From Vogesella oryzae (GTDB lineage: Bacteria; Pseudomonadota; Gammaproteobacteria; Burkholderiales; Chromobacteriaceae), in NCBI RefSeq assembly GCF_902829295.1, contig NZ_CADEPL010000014.1, forward strand, positions 1 through 64,000: 64,000 nucleotides of DNA, read 5' to 3'. This document shows positions 12,652-37,525 of the stretch, one piece after another. The notes under the pieces were generated by a model that was not told the DNA's origin, made no database searches, and saw nothing but the letters and a program-made list of their open reading frames with translations. Both the position numbers and the translations under genes were made by a program. The number at the start of each line of letters is the position of its first letter. Position 1 is the first letter of the stretch.

Positions 12652-13524
<873 letters not shown>

Positions 13525-13546
13525 GCTGACTCCTTGAATCAAATAC

Positions 13547-13571
13547 TGCGGCCAACAACAGGTTGGCCGCA
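13547..13571. repeat. Inverted pair of the GTTGGCCGCA motif
   Basis: TGCGGCCAAC (13547-13556) and GTTGGCCGCA (13562-13571) with a 5-base loop form a hairpin in the trpA-accD spacer. Confidence 0.85.
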
Positions 13572-13601
13572 GCGTTGCTGGCACGGGTATCCAGCGTGTT
13601 C

Positions 13602-14396
13602 CTAACGGGTGGCAGCTTTCAATGTAGCTACCAGACGGGTCAACTGCTCTCTGGCAGTTTCTGGTGTAGCCGACTCGATTTCCTGTACCAGACGGCTACC
13701 CACCACCACGGCATCGGCAGTGCCGGCAATGGCGCGGGTGGTTTCGGCATCGCGAATGCCAAAGCCGACACCGATCGGTACTTCAATGAATTGTCTAAGG
13801 GCGGCAATTTTACGCGCTACGTCGCCAATGTCCAGATTTCCGGCACCGGTAACCCCTTTTAATGACACGTAGTAGACATAACCGCGTGCCAGACGGGCAA
13901 TTTCACGCACCCGTGCTTCCGGCGTGGTCGGCGCAATCAGGAATACCGGATCGAGGTTTACCGCTTCCAGCGCCGCAGACAATTCGACCGCTTCTTCCGG
14001 CGGGCAATCCACGGTCAGCACGCCATCCACGCCGGCATCGGCCGCCAGACGGGCAAATTGCGGATAGCCGATGACATGCACCGGGTTGAGGTAACCCATC
14101 AGCACCACCGGCGTGGTCTGGTTGCTCTGGCGGAAGGTCTTCACCATCGCCAGTACGTCGCGCAGACCCACCTTGTGTACCAGCGCACGCTCGCTGGCGC
14201 GCTGGATCACCGGGCCATCGGCCATCGGGTCGGAGAACGGGATACCCAGTTCGATGATGTCGGCGCCGCCATCCACCAGGCCGTGCATCAAATCCACGGT
14301 CAGGTTCGGGTGCGGATCACCGGCGGTAATAAACGGAATCATGGCCTTTTCGCCGGCGGCTTTCAGGCGGGCAAAGGTGGCAGCAATACGGTTCAT
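13602..14396 (-). CDS. trpA: Tryptophan synthase alpha chain
   Basis: TrpA cleaves indole-3-glycerol phosphate to indole, which is channelled to TrpB. The protein is 264 aa, the usual length. The catalytic Glu and Asp are both present in [16 protein letters not shown]. The phosphate-binding region near the C-terminus (GVGFGIRD, then [11 protein letters not shown]) is intact. It follows trpB on the same strand with a motif hairpin in the spacer. Confidence 0.97.
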
Positions 14397-14487: not shown

Positions 14488-15690
<1,203 letters not shown>

Positions 15691-15722: not shown

Positions 15723-16361
15723 TTACACCGGCGGCATTGAATGCTGTGCGCTGCGAACCGCAGCAATAAAATCGGCCATACGCGCAGGACTCTTGATGCC
15801 CTTGCCGCTTTCCACGCCGCTGGAAACATCCACCGCGGCGGGACTGACACGCGCTACTGCATCGGCCACATTGTGTTCGTCGAGTCCGCCTGACAGGATC
15901 AGCGGCAGCGACAGCTGCGGCGGAATCAATGTCCAGTCGAAAGTCTTGCCGGTACCGCCATGTGCGCCTTCCACGAAGGCATCGGTCAGCAGACCGCGGG
16001 CATCATGATACTGTGCGGCCAACGCTTGCAGGTCGGTATCCGGCTGTACCCGCACCGCCTTCAGGTACGGGCGCTGGAAGCTGCGGCAGAATTCCGCGCT
16101 TTCCTCGCCGTGAAACTGCAGGATATCAATGGCGCAGTGCGCCAGCACGTTTGCCACTTCCTCGCGGCTGGCATTGACGAACAATGCCACCACACTGACG
16201 AACGGCGGCAGCGCGGCAATGATGGCCTGCGCCTGTTCAATACCGACATGGCGCGGGCTGTTGGCATAGAACACCAGACCGATGGCATCGGCGCCAAGGT
16301 TGGCCGCCGCCTGTGCATCTTCCGGACGGGTAAAACCGAAAATCTTGATACGCACGCTCAT
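15723..16361 (-). CDS. trpF: Phosphoribosylanthranilate isomerase-like protein with an altered catalytic Cys
   Basis: TrpF isomerises phosphoribosylanthranilate in tryptophan synthesis. The protein is 212 aa with the expected (beta/alpha)8 pattern and lies between truA and trpB, the normal place for trpF. The catalytic Asp region (LLTDAFVEG, then GGTGKTFDW) is intact. However, the first strand reads [12 protein letters not shown] where the family has KICGLTR, so the catalytic Cys is Phe at residue 8 (codon TTC, 16338-16340). Activity is therefore doubtful unless this is a sequence error. The gene is otherwise open and undamaged. Confidence 0.9.
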
Positions 16362-16362
16362 G

Positions 16363-17151
16363 CTATCTCCATAGCGTCAGCCGCGACGGTGCGGCGTGCG
16401 ACGGCAAATCGAATTCGGCAGGATAACCGACACCGGTCAGGTACAGCCCATCCGGCATGAAGGTAGGCGGCGCCTTGGTACGGTCGCGGGCGGCCAGCAA
16501 TGCCTGCATACCCGCCGCATCGAGGCTGCCCTTGCCGACGTACAGTAGCGCGCCAACGATATTGCGCACCATGTGATGCAGGAAGGCATCGGCCATCAGA
16601 TCGAAGCTGATTACACCGTCCACGGCCTGAATATCCAGCTGTTGCAGGTGCTTGTTCGGCGATTTGGCCTGACACTCGCTGGCGCGAAAGCTGGAAAAAT
16701 CGTGCTGTCCCAGCAGGCATTGCGCGGCATTGCGCATGGCAGCCACATCCAGTGCCTGGTGATACCAGCCGATACGGCCGGCGGTCAGCGCCGGGCGCAC
16801 CGGATCGGTAAGCAAGAGATAGCGGTAAGAACGGGAGAAAGCGGAAAAGCGGGCATGGAAACTCTCCGGCACCTCGCGCGCCCAGGTCACAGCCACGCTC
16901 GCCGGCAAGTGGGCGTTGACACCGCGCACCCAGGCATTGAGCGGCCGCACTGCGTCGCTCTCGAAATGCACCACCTGCTGCAAGGCATGCACACCGGCAT
17001 CGGTTCGCCCCGCGGCCAACGTTGTTACCGGTTGCCCGGCAATGGTCGAAATCGCGCGGTTCAGCGCATCCTGCACGGTATTGCCGTGCGGCTGGCTCTG
17101 CCAGCCGGCAAATGCGCGCCCGTCGTACTCCAGACCCAGCGCAATCCTCAT
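16363..17151 (-). CDS. truA: tRNA pseudouridine(38-40) synthase
   Basis: TruA makes pseudouridine at positions 38-40 of tRNA anticodon stems. The protein is 262 aa from the ATG at 17151. The N-terminus [11 protein letters not shown] is typical, and the catalytic Asp is in [15 protein letters not shown]. The start overlaps the stop of the upstream EcfT-like gene (ATGA), so the two are probably translationally coupled. The frame is open further upstream to 17217, but no homology lies there. Confidence 0.96.
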
Positions 17152-17774
17152 GCCACCATTCTCATTACAACCGCCAACAGGAGGCACACCAGCAACGCGC
17201 CGTCCCACTTGCTCCATGGATAAAGAGGCAACTGTACCTTATCGGGCCTTGCTTGTGCGAATTGCGGCGCCTGCAAATACGGCAGCAATTGTGTCAGACG
17301 CGGCTTTTCCGGCTGTTCGAGCAGGTGGTTGGCGTATTGCACAGTCAGCGCAAGACGCAAGGCCAGACGCCCGCGCGGCATGCCGGCACGGGCAAACAGC
17401 GCGTCCAGCGGCCAGCTTGCCGCCAGCAGTCCTGGCGTTCCCAGCCAAAGCCACACACCACGCGCCAGCAAGGCCAGCAACAGCACGGCCAACGCCTGGT
17501 GGGCGCCGGCAAACAATCCGGGAATACTGGGAGCGAAACGGGAGGAGAACAGCGGCGCACCCGGCAAGGTCCAGGCTGCCAGCAGCAGCATGGCCAGCAG
17601 CAGCCAGCGCATGCGGCGCAATGCCTGAACCAGCTCGCGCCGCCCGGGACGCCAGCCAAACATCAGTACCAGCAGCGCCAGGTAGCCGGCCAGCGGCAAT
17701 AACATCAGGTAAAGCGCGACAGCAAAAATCAGCAAGCAGCAAGTCAGCGGATGCAAAGTAGCAGGTCGCGACAT
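17148..17774 (-). CDS. EcfT/CbiQ-like integral membrane protein
   Basis: A 208-aa protein with about five hydrophobic segments. The region [33 protein letters not shown] resembles the coupling helix of EcfT/CbiQ proteins, the membrane subunit of energy-coupling factor vitamin or metal transporters. No ATPase or substrate subunit is adjacent, so the function is open. It overlaps the fimV stop by one base (TGATG) and the truA start by four bases, so it is embedded in a fimV-truA transcript. Confidence 0.6.
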
Positions 17775-20980: not shown

Positions 20981-23900
20981 TTAGCCCAGCAGATGGTTGT
21001 TCAGCTCGCGCATACCGGCAGACAGCATGGCCAGATCCAGCGACTCGAACGACTGCAGCTCGGCAAACATCTGCTGGCAGGCTTCGACATCGTCGGCACG
21101 CTGGGCAACCCAGGCGTTAACGAAGGCGCTGTCGCTGCCAGCAGCCAGCGCACGGCGCGTCAGCTCGCGGTGCTGGCGATACAGATCGTCACGCAGCGCC
21201 GAGCGCGCCAGCGATTGCCAGCGGTTGTCACGCGGCAATTGGGTGATGGCGCTGCGCAGCCAGTCCAGTTGCAAGCTGCGGCCCAGCTGCAGGTAGTTGG
21301 CCGCAATCACGTCCAGCGGCAATTCGCTGTCGCCGGCGATCTCGATGATGTCCATTAGCGGTACCGCCAGTTCGAGGCGGGCCAGCACACTGGCCAGCTC
21401 GGCCGGAACGTTCGGCTGGTTCAGGCGCTGCTCCAGACGCGCTACCTGCGGGTAGTCAGCGGCACTGATCAGCTGCGGCAGCTGCTGCAGCAGACCCTGC
21501 ACCTTGGCACCGTACTGGGCAACAGCCTCGCTCACGGAACCGATCGGACGACGGTTACGCAGTACCCAACGCACGGCGCGCTCGATCAGGGTGCGTACCA
21601 TCACCATCATTTCTACCTGCAGATCGGCAGACACCTGGTTGTCCAGCTGCTCGATCTGGCCCCACAGGCGCTCGGCATCGAATACGCGGCTGGCGACCCA
21701 GAACGCGCGGGTGATGTCGGCGGCGGAGAACGAGGACTCTTCCTGCAGGCGGAACACGAAGGTCACGCCCATGCGGTTGATGATCTGGTTCGCCAGCTGG
21801 TTGGAGATGATCTCGCGCTTCAGGTGGTGACGCTGCATCTGCTCGCCGAAACGCTGCTGCAGCGGTTTCGGGAAGTAGTTGACCAGTACCGGCAGGAAGT
21901 CGGGATCATCCGGCACGTCGGTTGCCAGGATGGCCTGATCCAGCGAAATCTTGCCGTAGGCCAGCAGTACCGCCACTTCCGGCGAAGTCAGACCCTGGCG
22001 CGCCAGACGGCGCTCGTTGATCTGGGTATCAGACGGCAGGTACTCGATCTCGCGGTTCAGCTCGCCGGTTTTTTCCATGTGGCTGATCATGCGGGAATGC
22101 GCGCTCAGCATGGAGGCAGCATGGCTGCGGTTGATCGCCAGCACCTGGGTTTGCAGGTAGTTGTTGCGCAGTACCAGCTCGCCCACTTCTTCGGTCATCT
22201 CCGCCAGCAGGTCATTACGCTGCTTCAGCGTCATGTCACCCGCCTGCATCACCGCACCCACCAGAATCTTGATGTTCACTTCGTGGTCGGAGCAGTCGAC
22301 ACCGGCGGAGTTATCGATGGCATCGGTGCAGATGCGGCCGCCAGCCAGTGCAAACTCGACTCGACCCAGCTGGGTGCAAGTCAGGTTGCCGCCTTCGGCA
22401 ACCACACGCGCCTGCAGCTCGTTGCCATTGACCCGTACCGGGTCGTTGGCACGGTCGCGGGCATCGGCATGGCTCTGGGTAGATGCCTTGATATAGGTAC
22501 CGATACCGCCGTTGTACAGCAGATCAACCTTGGCCTTCAGCAGCTCGTGGATCAGCTCGTTCGGCGCCATGCTGTCCTTGTCGGTTTCCAGCCAGGCCTT
22601 CACTTCCGGCGACAGCGGGATGGACTTGGCGGAGCGTTCGAAAATGCCACCACCCTGCGAAATCAGTTCGCGGTTGTAGTCAGTCCAGCTGGAACGCGGC
22701 AGATTGAACAGGCGTGCGCGCTCGGCGAAGCTGACGGCAGCATTCGGGTTCGGATCCAGGAAGATGTGCAGGTGGTTGAATGCGGCCTTCAGGCAGATGT
22801 GTTCGGACAGCAGCATGCCGTTACCGAATACGTCACCTGCCATATCACCGATACCCACCACGCTGAAGTCCTGCTCCTGGGTGTTGACGCCCAGATGGCG
22901 GAAGTGGCGCTTCACCGATTCCCAGGCACCGCGGGCAGTAATGCCCATGCCTTTGTGGTCGTAACCGGCAGAACCGCCGGAGGCAAACGCATCACCCAGC
23001 CAGAAGTTGTAGGCTTCGGAAATACTGTTGGCGATATCGGAGAAGGTCGCGGTGCCCTTGTCGGCAGCCACCACCAGATACGGATCATCCGGGTCCAGAC
23101 GGCGGACATCCAGCGGCGGAACCACCTGGCCATTCACCAGGTTATCGGTTACATCCAGCAGTGCGGAGATAAAGGTCTTGTAGCTGGCGATACCTTCGGC
23201 CATGAAGGCTTCGCGGTCGCTCGGTGCCGGCAGTTGCTTGCCGACGAAGCCACCCTTGGAACCCATCGGCACGATCACCGAGTTCTTCACCATCTGCGCC
23301 TTCACCAGACCCAGTACCTCGGTACGGAAGTCTTCCATACGGTCGGACCAGCGCAGACCACCACGCGCCACCTTGGAACCGCGCAGATGCACGCCTTCCA
23401 CGCGCGGGCTGTATACCCAGATTTCGAACATCGGGCGCGGCTGCGGCAGGAAGGAAATCTGGTTGGAATCCAGCTTGAAGGAAGCGTAGGACTTGAACTC
23501 GCCGTCCGGGCCCTTCTGCCAGAAGTTGGTACGACGAGTCGCCAGGATCACCTGCAGGAAGCCGTTCAGGATACGGTCTTCATCCAGGTTGGCCACCTTG
23601 TCCAGCTGTTCCTTCAGGGTGTCCTGCAGTTTGGCGGCGGCGGCATCGTCAAATGCGGACGGATGCAGACGGGCAACGAACAGTTTCACCAGATTGCGGG
23701 TGATATCCGGGTAATGGGCCACGCAGTTTTCGATATAGGCCTGGCTGAAGGTCAGACCGCCCTGACGCAGATACTTGGCCAGCGCACGCACCAGGGTGAT
23801 TTCACGCCAGTCAAGACCGGCCACCACGGCCAGACGGTTGAAGCCGTCGTTTTCGCAATCCTTGGCAAACACACGGGCCAGCAGCGCCTGGAAATTCTTC

Positions 23901-25783
23901 TGCACTGCCTCATCCTGCATCGCCTCGGCATGGGCACCCAGCTCCAGACCGAAGTCGCTGATCCAGATGGTTTCGCCGTTACGCTCCACCAGGTACGGAT
24001 GTTCGTCACGCACCTGTACACCCATGTTTTCCAGGATCGGCAGGCTGGCGGACAGACCCAGCGGCTGGCCGGAGCGGAACAGTTTCAGGTTGTAGCCGTG
24101 GCCACGATTGAACGAGCGATACAGTTTCATCGCCAGACCGTGCTGCTCGGCGGTCTCTTCGATCAGCTGGATGTCCAGCACCGCGTTACGGGCGGCGAAC
24201 TCTTCGCGGTACGCCACCGGGAACGCGCCACGGTAACGGTTGTACAGCAGGTTGCCTTTTTCTTCGCCGTGGGCTTCGATCAGCTGCTGGTGCAGTTCTT
24301 CTTCCCAGCCGCGTACCACGCGGGCGATATCGGCTTCCAGCTCGTCTTCACGGAACTGCGGCAGGTGGCCGCCCTGGGTGCGGATGATGTAGTGCACACG
24401 CGCCAGGGTGCTGTCGCTGATCTGCACGCTGAATTCGGCGGAGGCGCCATTGAAGGCAGCCATCAGCACTTTTTCGATCTTCAGGCGGATTTCGGTATTG
24501 AAGCTGTCGCGCGGCACGAATACCAGGCAGCTGACATAGCGATGGTAGCGGTCGGCACGGGTAAACAGGCGCACACGCGGACGCTCCTGCAGGCTGACGA
24601 TGCCTTCGGCAATCGGCGTCAGCACGTCGGCCGGAATTTCAAACAGCTCGTCGCGCGGGTAGCTTTCCAGCACGAAGCCGAGGGTCTTGGCCTTGTAGCT
24701 GTTGTCCACGTAGTCGCAAGCGGCAACAACGTGGGCCACTTTCTGGCGCAGGATCGGGATGTCTTTCGGGGAATGCTGGTAAGCGCTGGCAGTGTACAGG
24801 CCCAGGAAGCGGCGCTCACCGATGACCTCGCCCTTGCTGTTGAAACGCTTGATGCCGACAAAGTCCATATAGGCCGGACGGTGCAGCACCGAGCGCGACT
24901 GCGATTTATTCAGGATCAGCAGGTGCGGCTGGTGCGCCAGTTCGCGCAACTCTTGCGGCAGCGCCTCGAAGCTCTCCGAATACTCCTTGTTGCCCTGGTT
25001 TTTCAGGAAGCCCAGACCGGAATCCTTCACGATCTTCAGGCTGTCCTTGCCGTCGCGCTTCACCAGGTCGTAGTCGCAGTAACCCATGAAAATGAAATGG
25101 TTGGCCGCCATCCAGTCGAGGAATGCAATCGACTCCTTCACTTCCTCGGCACGCTTGCCGTCAATCTTGGCCACCTCGGCACGCACTGCGGCCAACGTTG
25201 CGCGCATTTGCGGCTCGTCATCCACCACCTGGCGCAGGTTAGCCAGCACATTGTCCAGATCTTCCTGCAGGGCCTTCAGTTTCGCCGGGTCGCTGACGCG
25301 GTCCACCTGAACGTGAATGAAGGATTCCAGCGGCAGGCTGCGGTCTTCGGTACGTTTCAGCTCGACAATCTCGCCCTTGGTATCGCGGCCGATAGACAGT
25401 ACCGGATGCACCAGCAAATGCAGATTCAGGTTGTGACGACCCAGCAGCATGGACAGCGAGTCGATCAGGAACGGCATGTCGTCGTTAACAATCTCGATCA
25501 CGCTGTGGGTGCTCTGCCAGCCGTCCCGTTCGAAATCCGGGTTGTAGATACGCGCCTTGACCTGACCGGCGGCACGCTTCTGGGCAAACTCGAAATGCGC
25601 CATGGCCGCACCAAACAGGTCCAGCGGGGAGAAACTCTTCAGGTCTTCCTGCTCGGTTTCTTCGAAGTACAGGGGAATAAAGGTGCCAAGGCGTGCAGCC
25701 TCGGTGGAGGAGAGTTTCTGTTCAGCCACTGCCAGGATGTCAGCGACCAGCCCAACGGTTTCGGTCTTTTTGGTAAGCGACAT
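20981..25783 (-). CDS. gdhB: NAD-specific glutamate dehydrogenase, large (about 180 kDa) class
   Basis: GdhB deaminates glutamate to 2-oxoglutarate with NAD, mainly in amino acid catabolism. The protein is 1600 aa, the length of the Pseudomonas GdhB / Caulobacter GdhZ class. The long N-terminal regulatory region is followed by the catalytic core with VARGGLRWSDRMEDFRTEVLGL and MVKNSVIVPMGSKGGF. The ATG at 25783 begins the conserved N-terminus (MSLTKKTETV). It is divergent from the aot operon. In Pseudomonas aeruginosa gdhB is induced by arginine through ArgR, and ArgR-like half-sites precede this gene. Confidence 0.95.
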   Translation of the reverse strand: MSLTKKTETVGLVADILAVAEQKLSSTEAARLGTFIPLYFEETEQEDLKSFSPLDLFGAAMAHFEFAQKRAAGQVKARIYNPDFERDGWQSTHSVIEIVNDDMPFLIDSLSMLLGRHNLNLHLLVHPVLSIGRDTKGEIVELKRTEDRSLPLESFIHVQVDRVSDPAKLKALQEDLDNVLANLRQVVDDEPQMRATLAAVRAEVAKIDGKRAEEVKESIAFLDWMAANHFIFMGYCDYDLVKRDGKDSLKIVKDSGLGFLKNQGNKEYSESFEALPQELRELAHQPHLLILNKSQSRSVLHRPAYMDFVGIKRFNSKGEVIGERRFLGLYTASAYQHSPKDIPILRQKVAHVVAACDYVDNSYKAKTLGFVLESYPRDELFEIPADVLTPIAEGIVSLQERPRVRLFTRADRYHRYVSCLVFVPRDSFNTEIRLKIEKVLMAAFNGASAEFSVQISDSTLARVHYIIRTQGGHLPQFREDELEADIARVVRGWEEELHQQLIEAHGEEKGNLLYNRYRGAFPVAYREEFAARNAVLDIQLIEETAEQHGLAMKLYRSFNRGHGYNLKLFRSGQPLGLSASLPILENMGVQVRDEHPYLVERNGETIWISDFGLELGAHAEAMQDEAVQKNFQALLARVFAKDCENDGFNRLAVVAGLDWREITLVRALAKYLRQGGLTFSQAYIENCVAHYPDITRNLVKLFVARLHPSAFDDAAAAKLQDTLKEQLDKVANLDEDRILNGFLQVILATRRTNFWQKGPDGEFKSYASFKLDSNQISFLPQPRPMFEIWVYSPRVEGVHLRGSKVARGGLRWSDRMEDFRTEVLGLVKAQMVKNSVIVPMGSKGGFVGKQLPAPSDREAFMAEGIASYKTFISALLDVTDNLVNGQVVPPLDVRRLDPDDPYLVVAADKGTATFSDIANSISEAYNFWLGDAFASGGSAGYDHKGMGITARGAWESVKRHFRHLGVNTQEQDFSVVGIGDMAGDVFGNGMLLSEHICLKAAFNHLHIFLDPNPNAAVSFAERARLFNLPRSSWTDYNRELISQGGGIFERSAKSIPLSPEVKAWLETDKDSMAPNELIHELLKAKVDLLYNGGIGTYIKASTQSHADARDRANDPVRVNGNELQARVVAEGGNLTCTQLGRVEFALAGGRICTDAIDNSAGVDCSDHEVNIKILVGAVMQAGDMTLKQRNDLLAEMTEEVGELVLRNNYLQTQVLAINRSHAASMLSAHSRMISHMEKTGELNREIEYLPSDTQINERRLARQGLTSPEVAVLLAYGKISLDQAILATDVPDDPDFLPVLVNYFPKPLQQRFGEQMQRHHLKREIISNQLANQIINRMGVTFVFRLQEESSFSAADITRAFWVASRVFDAERLWGQIEQLDNQVSADLQVEMMVMVRTLIERAVRWVLRNRRPIGSVSEAVAQYGAKVQGLLQQLPQLISAADYPQVARLEQRLNQPNVPAELASVLARLELAVPLMDIIEIAGDSELPLDVIAANYLQLGRSLQLDWLRSAITQLPRDNRWQSLARSALRDDLYRQHRELTRRALAAGSDSAFVNAWVAQRADDVEACQQMFAELQSFESLDLAMLSAGMRELNNHLLG

Positions 25784-26302
25784 GTTGCTTCTCGTAGTTG
25801 TTCTCGGGGACACAGGTGTTGTGTGGCGGCATTGTAAGAGCCCCCACCAGCAAGGGATTTCCGTATTGCGACACTGACGTACACATTCAATAAATGCGCC
25901 GCACAATCATGAATCCATAAATGTTTTGCATTTGACAGTGGTTGCGCTTTTTGCCTTATAGCAATGCGACGGCAAATTACAAAATACTCATGCAACGCCC
26001 ATTTGCCACACGCACAAAAAATAAACGCAAGCCATTGAATATAGACACATTTCCACAAAATAAAAAAAATCAGTAGAATGCGCGCCTTCCTGCAAACAGG
26101 GTCACAAGCCCTGGCGCTGCATTGTGCCTGCTTTCGTTGCATGCCAAGATTTCGCCGTCCCCCGCCACGAGGGGATCGCAAAATAACAACATTACAAGGG
26201 AAGGCCCGAACGGGCTGGATAAGCGGGCTGCAGGCGGCAACGCGGCAGGCACACCGGATCTCCACGCGGGATTACGAACTTCAAGAGAGAGTTAGAGATA
26301 GC
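25784..26302. promoter_or_regulatory. Divergent gdhB/aot regulatory region with ArgR-like half-sites
   Basis: This 519-base gap contains no gene. On the minus strand, TGTCGC at 25868-25873 is followed after 8 bases by AA (25858-25859), and CGTCGC at 25966-25971 is also followed after 8 bases by AA (25956-25957). These fit or nearly fit the Pseudomonas ArgR half-site TGTCGC-N8-AA. On the plus strand a TAGAAT -10 candidate lies at 26074-26079, which implies a leader of more than 200 bases before aotJ. I recognise no riboswitch in that leader. Confidence 0.6.
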
Positions 26303-37449: not shown

Positions 37450-37525
37450 GCCGGTATAGCTCAGTTGGTAGAGCAGCGCATTCGTAATGCGAAGGTCGGG
37501 GGTTCGACTCCTCTTACCGGCACCA
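37450..37525 (+). tRNA. tRNA-Thr (anticodon CGT)
   Basis: A 76-nt cloverleaf with acceptor stem GCCGGTA/TACCGGC, D-arm AGCTCAGTTGGTAGAGC, anticodon stem-loop with CGT at 37483-37485, T-arm GGGGGTTCGACTCC and an encoded CCA end. It reads ACG codons. The 1.2 kb after it is gene-poor remnant DNA, so it may have served as an integration site. Confidence 0.97.

Follow-up and report, generated by a model that had tools for sequence, protein, structure and literature searches.

A TrpF homologue of Vogesella oryzae with phenylalanine at the position of the catalytic cysteine

The window analysed here is a stretch of 64,000 nucleotides from Vogesella oryzae (RefSeq assembly GCF_902829295.1, contig NZ_CADEPL010000014.1, positions 1 to 64,000). 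It contains a homologue of phosphoribosylanthranilate isomerase (TrpF), whose gene lies between truA and the tryptophan synthase genes (Table 1), with a single base between the stop codon of truA and the start of trpF. The order truA-trpF-trpB-trpA-accD is found in 11 of 12 congeners, and the twelfth (G002) shows the same order up to the end of its contig within trpB; this bears out the first-pass annotation, which had described the operon as normal. The tRNA gene listed is the only one found in the window. Two neighbouring frames of 693 and 337 aa, which presumably encode FimV-like proteins, each match stretch L080 of the sister species in several pieces. The long frame at 20981-25906, which we take to be glutamate-dehydrogenase-like, has no match in this 19.9-kb stretch; either the gene order differs or the stretch ends earlier.

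Table 1. Features of the window around trpF, with the remaining frames and the tRNA gene named in the text
Feature	Position	Strand	Evidence and remarks
accD, downstream	12652..13584	-	TIGR00515 423.7 bits, cut-off 317.45; same order in relatives
trpA, tryptophan synthase alpha, intact	13602..14396	-	TIGR00262 246.6 bits, cut-off 102.35
trpB, tryptophan synthase beta, intact	14488..15690	-	TIGR00263 621.3 bits, cut-off 392.45
trpF, phosphoribosylanthranilate isomerase homologue	15723..16361	-	open frame, 212 aa
trpF codon 8, TTC (Phe8), site of the catalytic Cys codon	16338..16340	-	codon reading and alignment
truA, upstream	16363..17217	-	TIGR00071 218.7 bits, cut-off 142.85; same order in relatives
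frame, 693 aa	17774..19855	-	
frame, 337 aa	19928..20941	-	
long frame	20981..25906	-	
tRNA-Thr (CGT)	37450..37525	+	

The product of trpF was recognised by the PF00697 profile (144.3 bits against a cut-off of 22.7) and, over its full length, by the NCBIfam equivalog NF002298 (271.9 bits, cut-off 215). Its Phe8 aligns with the Cys of the K[I/V]CG motif in four solved TrpF sequences, including that of Thermotoga maritima (1lbm), among the alignments listed; residue 8 here corresponds to Cys7 of T. maritima. In TrpF this cysteine acts as the general base rather than the acid. Passages of PMC2667513 name Cys7 and Asp126 as the residues essential to TrpF catalysis, passages of PMC3885575 give Cys7 as the active-site residue corresponding to Asp8 of HisA and Ser34 and Arg36 of T. 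maritima TrpF as contacts of anthranilate, and a passage of PMC9088769 describes acid-base pairs of an aspartate and, in TrpF, a cysteine. Ser35 and Arg37 stand at the positions of the anthranilate contacts and Asp127, within LTDAF, at that of Asp126, in a column where the alignment is loose (140 of the 159 other rows have Asp and five are gapped); the catalytic Cys is absent and Phe8 takes its place. The protein is thus a full-length homologue of the monofunctional TrpFs (PF00697; NF002298; T. maritima 1nsj/1lbm) in which Asp127 and the invariant residues are kept, and differs from them by Phe8, a residue present at this position in no other TrpF examined. HisA and PriA isomerases, which share a related barrel, catalyse the same Amadori-type rearrangement, and their catalytic residues are aspartates according to passages of PMC2667513, PMC9088769 and PMC13055916. 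Phe8 is neither Asp nor Cys, and by sequence the protein is a TrpF, not a HisA or PriA. Judged from its sequence it belongs to the TrpF family by descent and is not filed as a functional phosphoribosylanthranilate isomerase, because a defining catalytic residue was tested and found to be replaced.

A Cys codon (TGC or TGT) occupies the aligned position in all twelve congeners, which rules out Phe as a feature of the lineage. In the closest congener (G001), whose TrpF is 89% identical, this codon is TGC, and therefore one G-to-T change explains TTC. The first-pass annotation had placed a Phe codon at the catalytic Cys position, had ascribed it to such a single change and had suggested comparison with sister species; codon reading, alignments and the congeners confirm the first two points. 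It had also derived KIFGFTR from KICGLTR, of which the unusual Phe8 stands but the expectation of Leu at position 10 does not, as all 13 species of the genus set (this genome included) have Phe10, which is ordinary there. For the wider comparison, TrpF sequences were taken from 60 relatives, 96 further genomes of the same phylum and E. coli K-12, the further genomes coming from a draw of 100 that included the present one and gave 97 with a TrpF match. From G015 a weak second match (L195) was excluded; the position is missing from two partial rows (the second stretch of L194, and L261), whose genomes are each counted via another row. Cys was found in 157 of the 158 TrpFs from this one phylum that cover the position, those of the twelve congeners included, and Phe only in the present genome. 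Conservation reaches at least 97% in 24 columns, and among these the V. oryzae protein deviates solely at Phe8, in agreement with the earlier remark that the protein is otherwise intact; 14 of 159 other rows deviate somewhere in these columns, none of them at Cys. The invariant residues Lys6, Gly9, Gly28, Ser35, Arg37, Gln82, Gly136, Phe141, Trp143, Gly158/159, Asp178 and Lys190 are kept.

The genome is a draft of 58 contigs rated 100% complete. It encodes trpE, G, D, C, B and A: a single TrpC-type match was identified, as well as a single TrpD-type match with TrpG adjoining and two chorismate-binding proteins, which share 42% and 34% identity with E. coli TrpE and one of which may serve another pathway. 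A second trpF or a priA-like gene had been proposed as something to look for. PF00697 has one match in the whole genome, so that no second trpF was found, and PF00977 has only two, HisA and HisF. Over 236 aligned residues, HisA shows 4 to 11 differences from its counterparts in the twelve congeners, and each of its residues recurs in at least one of them; its sequence gives no sign of an altered or otherwise unusual HisA. Further full-length matches to the HisA/HisF family occur in some congeners, two each in G006 (G006:C3) and G011 (G011:C4) and one each in G002 (G002:C265), G008 (G008:C28) and G010 (G010:C6); the present genome has none.

Selection on trpF was gauged by comparing codons of this genome with those of G001 and polarising the differences by the other congeners; the resulting parsimony counts are crude. 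The branch leading to V. oryzae carries 11 nonsynonymous and 27 synonymous changes in trpF, and that of the sister 9 and 15, a further 1 and 5 being unassignable; Fisher p is 0.58, and therefore no long period without selection on trpF is indicated. Comparison with trpA and trpB together (16 and 70) and with truA (5 and 38) on the same branch gave p values of 0.24 and 0.09. Paired with G001, trpF has a dN/dS of 0.134, which exceeds those of the three other close trpF pairs compared (0.087, 0.054 and 0.086) and the values of trpA (0.056), trpB (0.061) and truA (0.103) for the same pair, yet is far below 1. accD was excluded from the counts, as its comparison with G012 was out of frame (dN >2) and 51 of 63 synonymous differences were unassignable. 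A crude estimate, with background ratios of 0.05-0.134 assumed, bounds relaxed selection to about 10-18% of the branch at 95%; the change is therefore recent, absent from the organism (an error) or harmless. Neither the branch counts, nor the near-invariant columns, nor this bound give any sign of a long decay of trpF. A G-to-T mutator is likewise not indicated, G:C to T:A accounting for 13 of 92 polarised changes here and 8 of 68 in the sister across four genes. The other ten replacements on the branch (K34N, A42E, E70A, V80I, P89A, G108D, P151S, Q193A, A204S and N207H) introduce residues that also occur in other TrpFs at the same columns, leaving Phe8 as the only unique one of the eleven. 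Only A42E and G108D add an acidic residue, and Glu42 and Asp108 are present in 51 and 8 of 159 other rows; no new catalytic base is evident among the eleven.

A DNA pattern for the Phe version of the motif (K-[I/V/M]-F-G-[I/L/F/M]-T, 11 residues, G-[A/V]-D) was run against a collection of 84,980 species genomes, from which entries for this genome or its close relatives may be missing. It matched 46 stretches, in none of which tblastn with the V. oryzae or the T. maritima protein detected a TrpF, and a Phe-type TrpF is thereby ruled out among the matches. The Cys version of the pattern matched 102 of 157 TrpF loci of the same phylum, in which alone sensitivity was gauged (one locus lacks the position); about one third of the TrpFs in this phylum would therefore escape the pattern. 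One recurring sequence, KIFG[L/F]TPxM, accounts for 34 of the 46 stretches; it comes from Bacteroidota records, looks like the Phe-type TrpF motif when compared as DNA and presumably belongs to a peptidase-like protein. In the open-access literature, neither an activity figure for a Cys7 mutant nor a natural TrpF lacking the Cys was found by literature searches or in passages of PMC9088769, PMC7591586, PMC2667513, PMC4462073, PMC3885575, PMC7681013 and PMC13055916, and a term search of PMC4732765 returned nothing.

The reading favoured here, at a probability of about 0.6, is that of a real and recent missense change that leaves TrpF inactive or much weakened; the odds given to this and the three other readings are judgements and were not computed. 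An ordinary, vertically inherited TrpF would very recently have had its catalytic Cys8 (Cys7 in T. maritima) swapped for Phe by a G-to-T change. Because Phe has no acid-base function, the known mechanism should break down or give very little catalysis: the residue would be unable to accept the substrate's proton and is expected to crowd the site beside the ribose, so that phosphoribosylanthranilate would be isomerised very weakly or not at all. In that case the strain would depend on a supply of tryptophan or indole from outside, or would grow slowly without either, and the remaining pathway would be idle and not yet decayed. Of the outcomes listed in the first-pass annotation, a weak or recently inactivated enzyme fits best, while a changed mechanism lacks positive support: no other TrpF examined is without the Cys, and the ten other changes carry residues found in other TrpFs.

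The main rival, which is clearly less probable and still to be taken seriously, is a base-calling or assembly error, with TGC and a normal TrpF in the organism itself. One deviating base at a position invariant in 157 other TrpFs, in a gene and pathway that otherwise look fully selected and in a draft assembly of 58 contigs, is what such an error would look like. Isolated substitution errors in consensus sequence are rare, which speaks against it, as does the absence of a frame break nearby: nine of 13 frames match the sister's stretch nearly full-length, a comparison that tests indels and not single substitutions. The other four comprise dnaE, cut by the end of the stretch, two partial matches and the unmatched long frame, and these partial or absent matches are read as differences in gene content and not as error. 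An enzyme that works without the Cys, its base being some other group, for instance water or a conserved Asp lying close to the ligand, is unlikely. It would account for the purifying selection over most of the branch, the retention of all other near-invariant residues (Asp178 included) and the complete trp pathway; an intact pathway and purifying selection are indeed equally expected of a still-working enzyme. No other Phe-type TrpF was found, however, among the 157 same-phylum TrpFs or the 46 pattern matches, no new base is evident among the eleven changes (Glu42 and Asp108 occurring in other rows), and one substitution at the tip gives no sign of a maintained change. It is very improbable that a naturally selected TrpF isomerising phosphoribosylanthranilate without the otherwise universal Cys has become fixed in the species. 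It is also unlikely that the step has been taken over by a HisA-like activity, by PurF promiscuity or by an unrecognised isomerase, leaving trpF free to change. Mutated HisA can be selected for TrpF activity according to a passage of PMC7591586, and a title cited in PMC7681013 names PurF as a promiscuous isomerase for this step. Against such a bypass stand a HisA with 4-11 differences from those of congeners over 236 residues and none unique, the limit of two PF00977 matches and the single PF00697 match in the genome, and a trpF in which selection shows no relaxation beyond the tip.

Phe8 most likely stems from a one-off loss or from an error, and a new way of doing the chemistry is unlikely. 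Should TTC be genuine, the profile matches point to a full tryptophan pathway that is probably blocked, and annotation would then mislead metabolic reconstruction; an enzyme that still worked would call the accepted TrpF mechanism into question.

Viral and plasmid records were also searched. Among viral contigs 14 stretches fit a peptide pattern, none of which encodes a relative. In PLSDB a TrpF homologue is present in 1,912 of 72,556 plasmid records, in every case at less than 60% identity to the V. oryzae protein. Most of these records are from enteric bacteria and most are predicted to be conjugative, and some of those listed are chromosome-sized.
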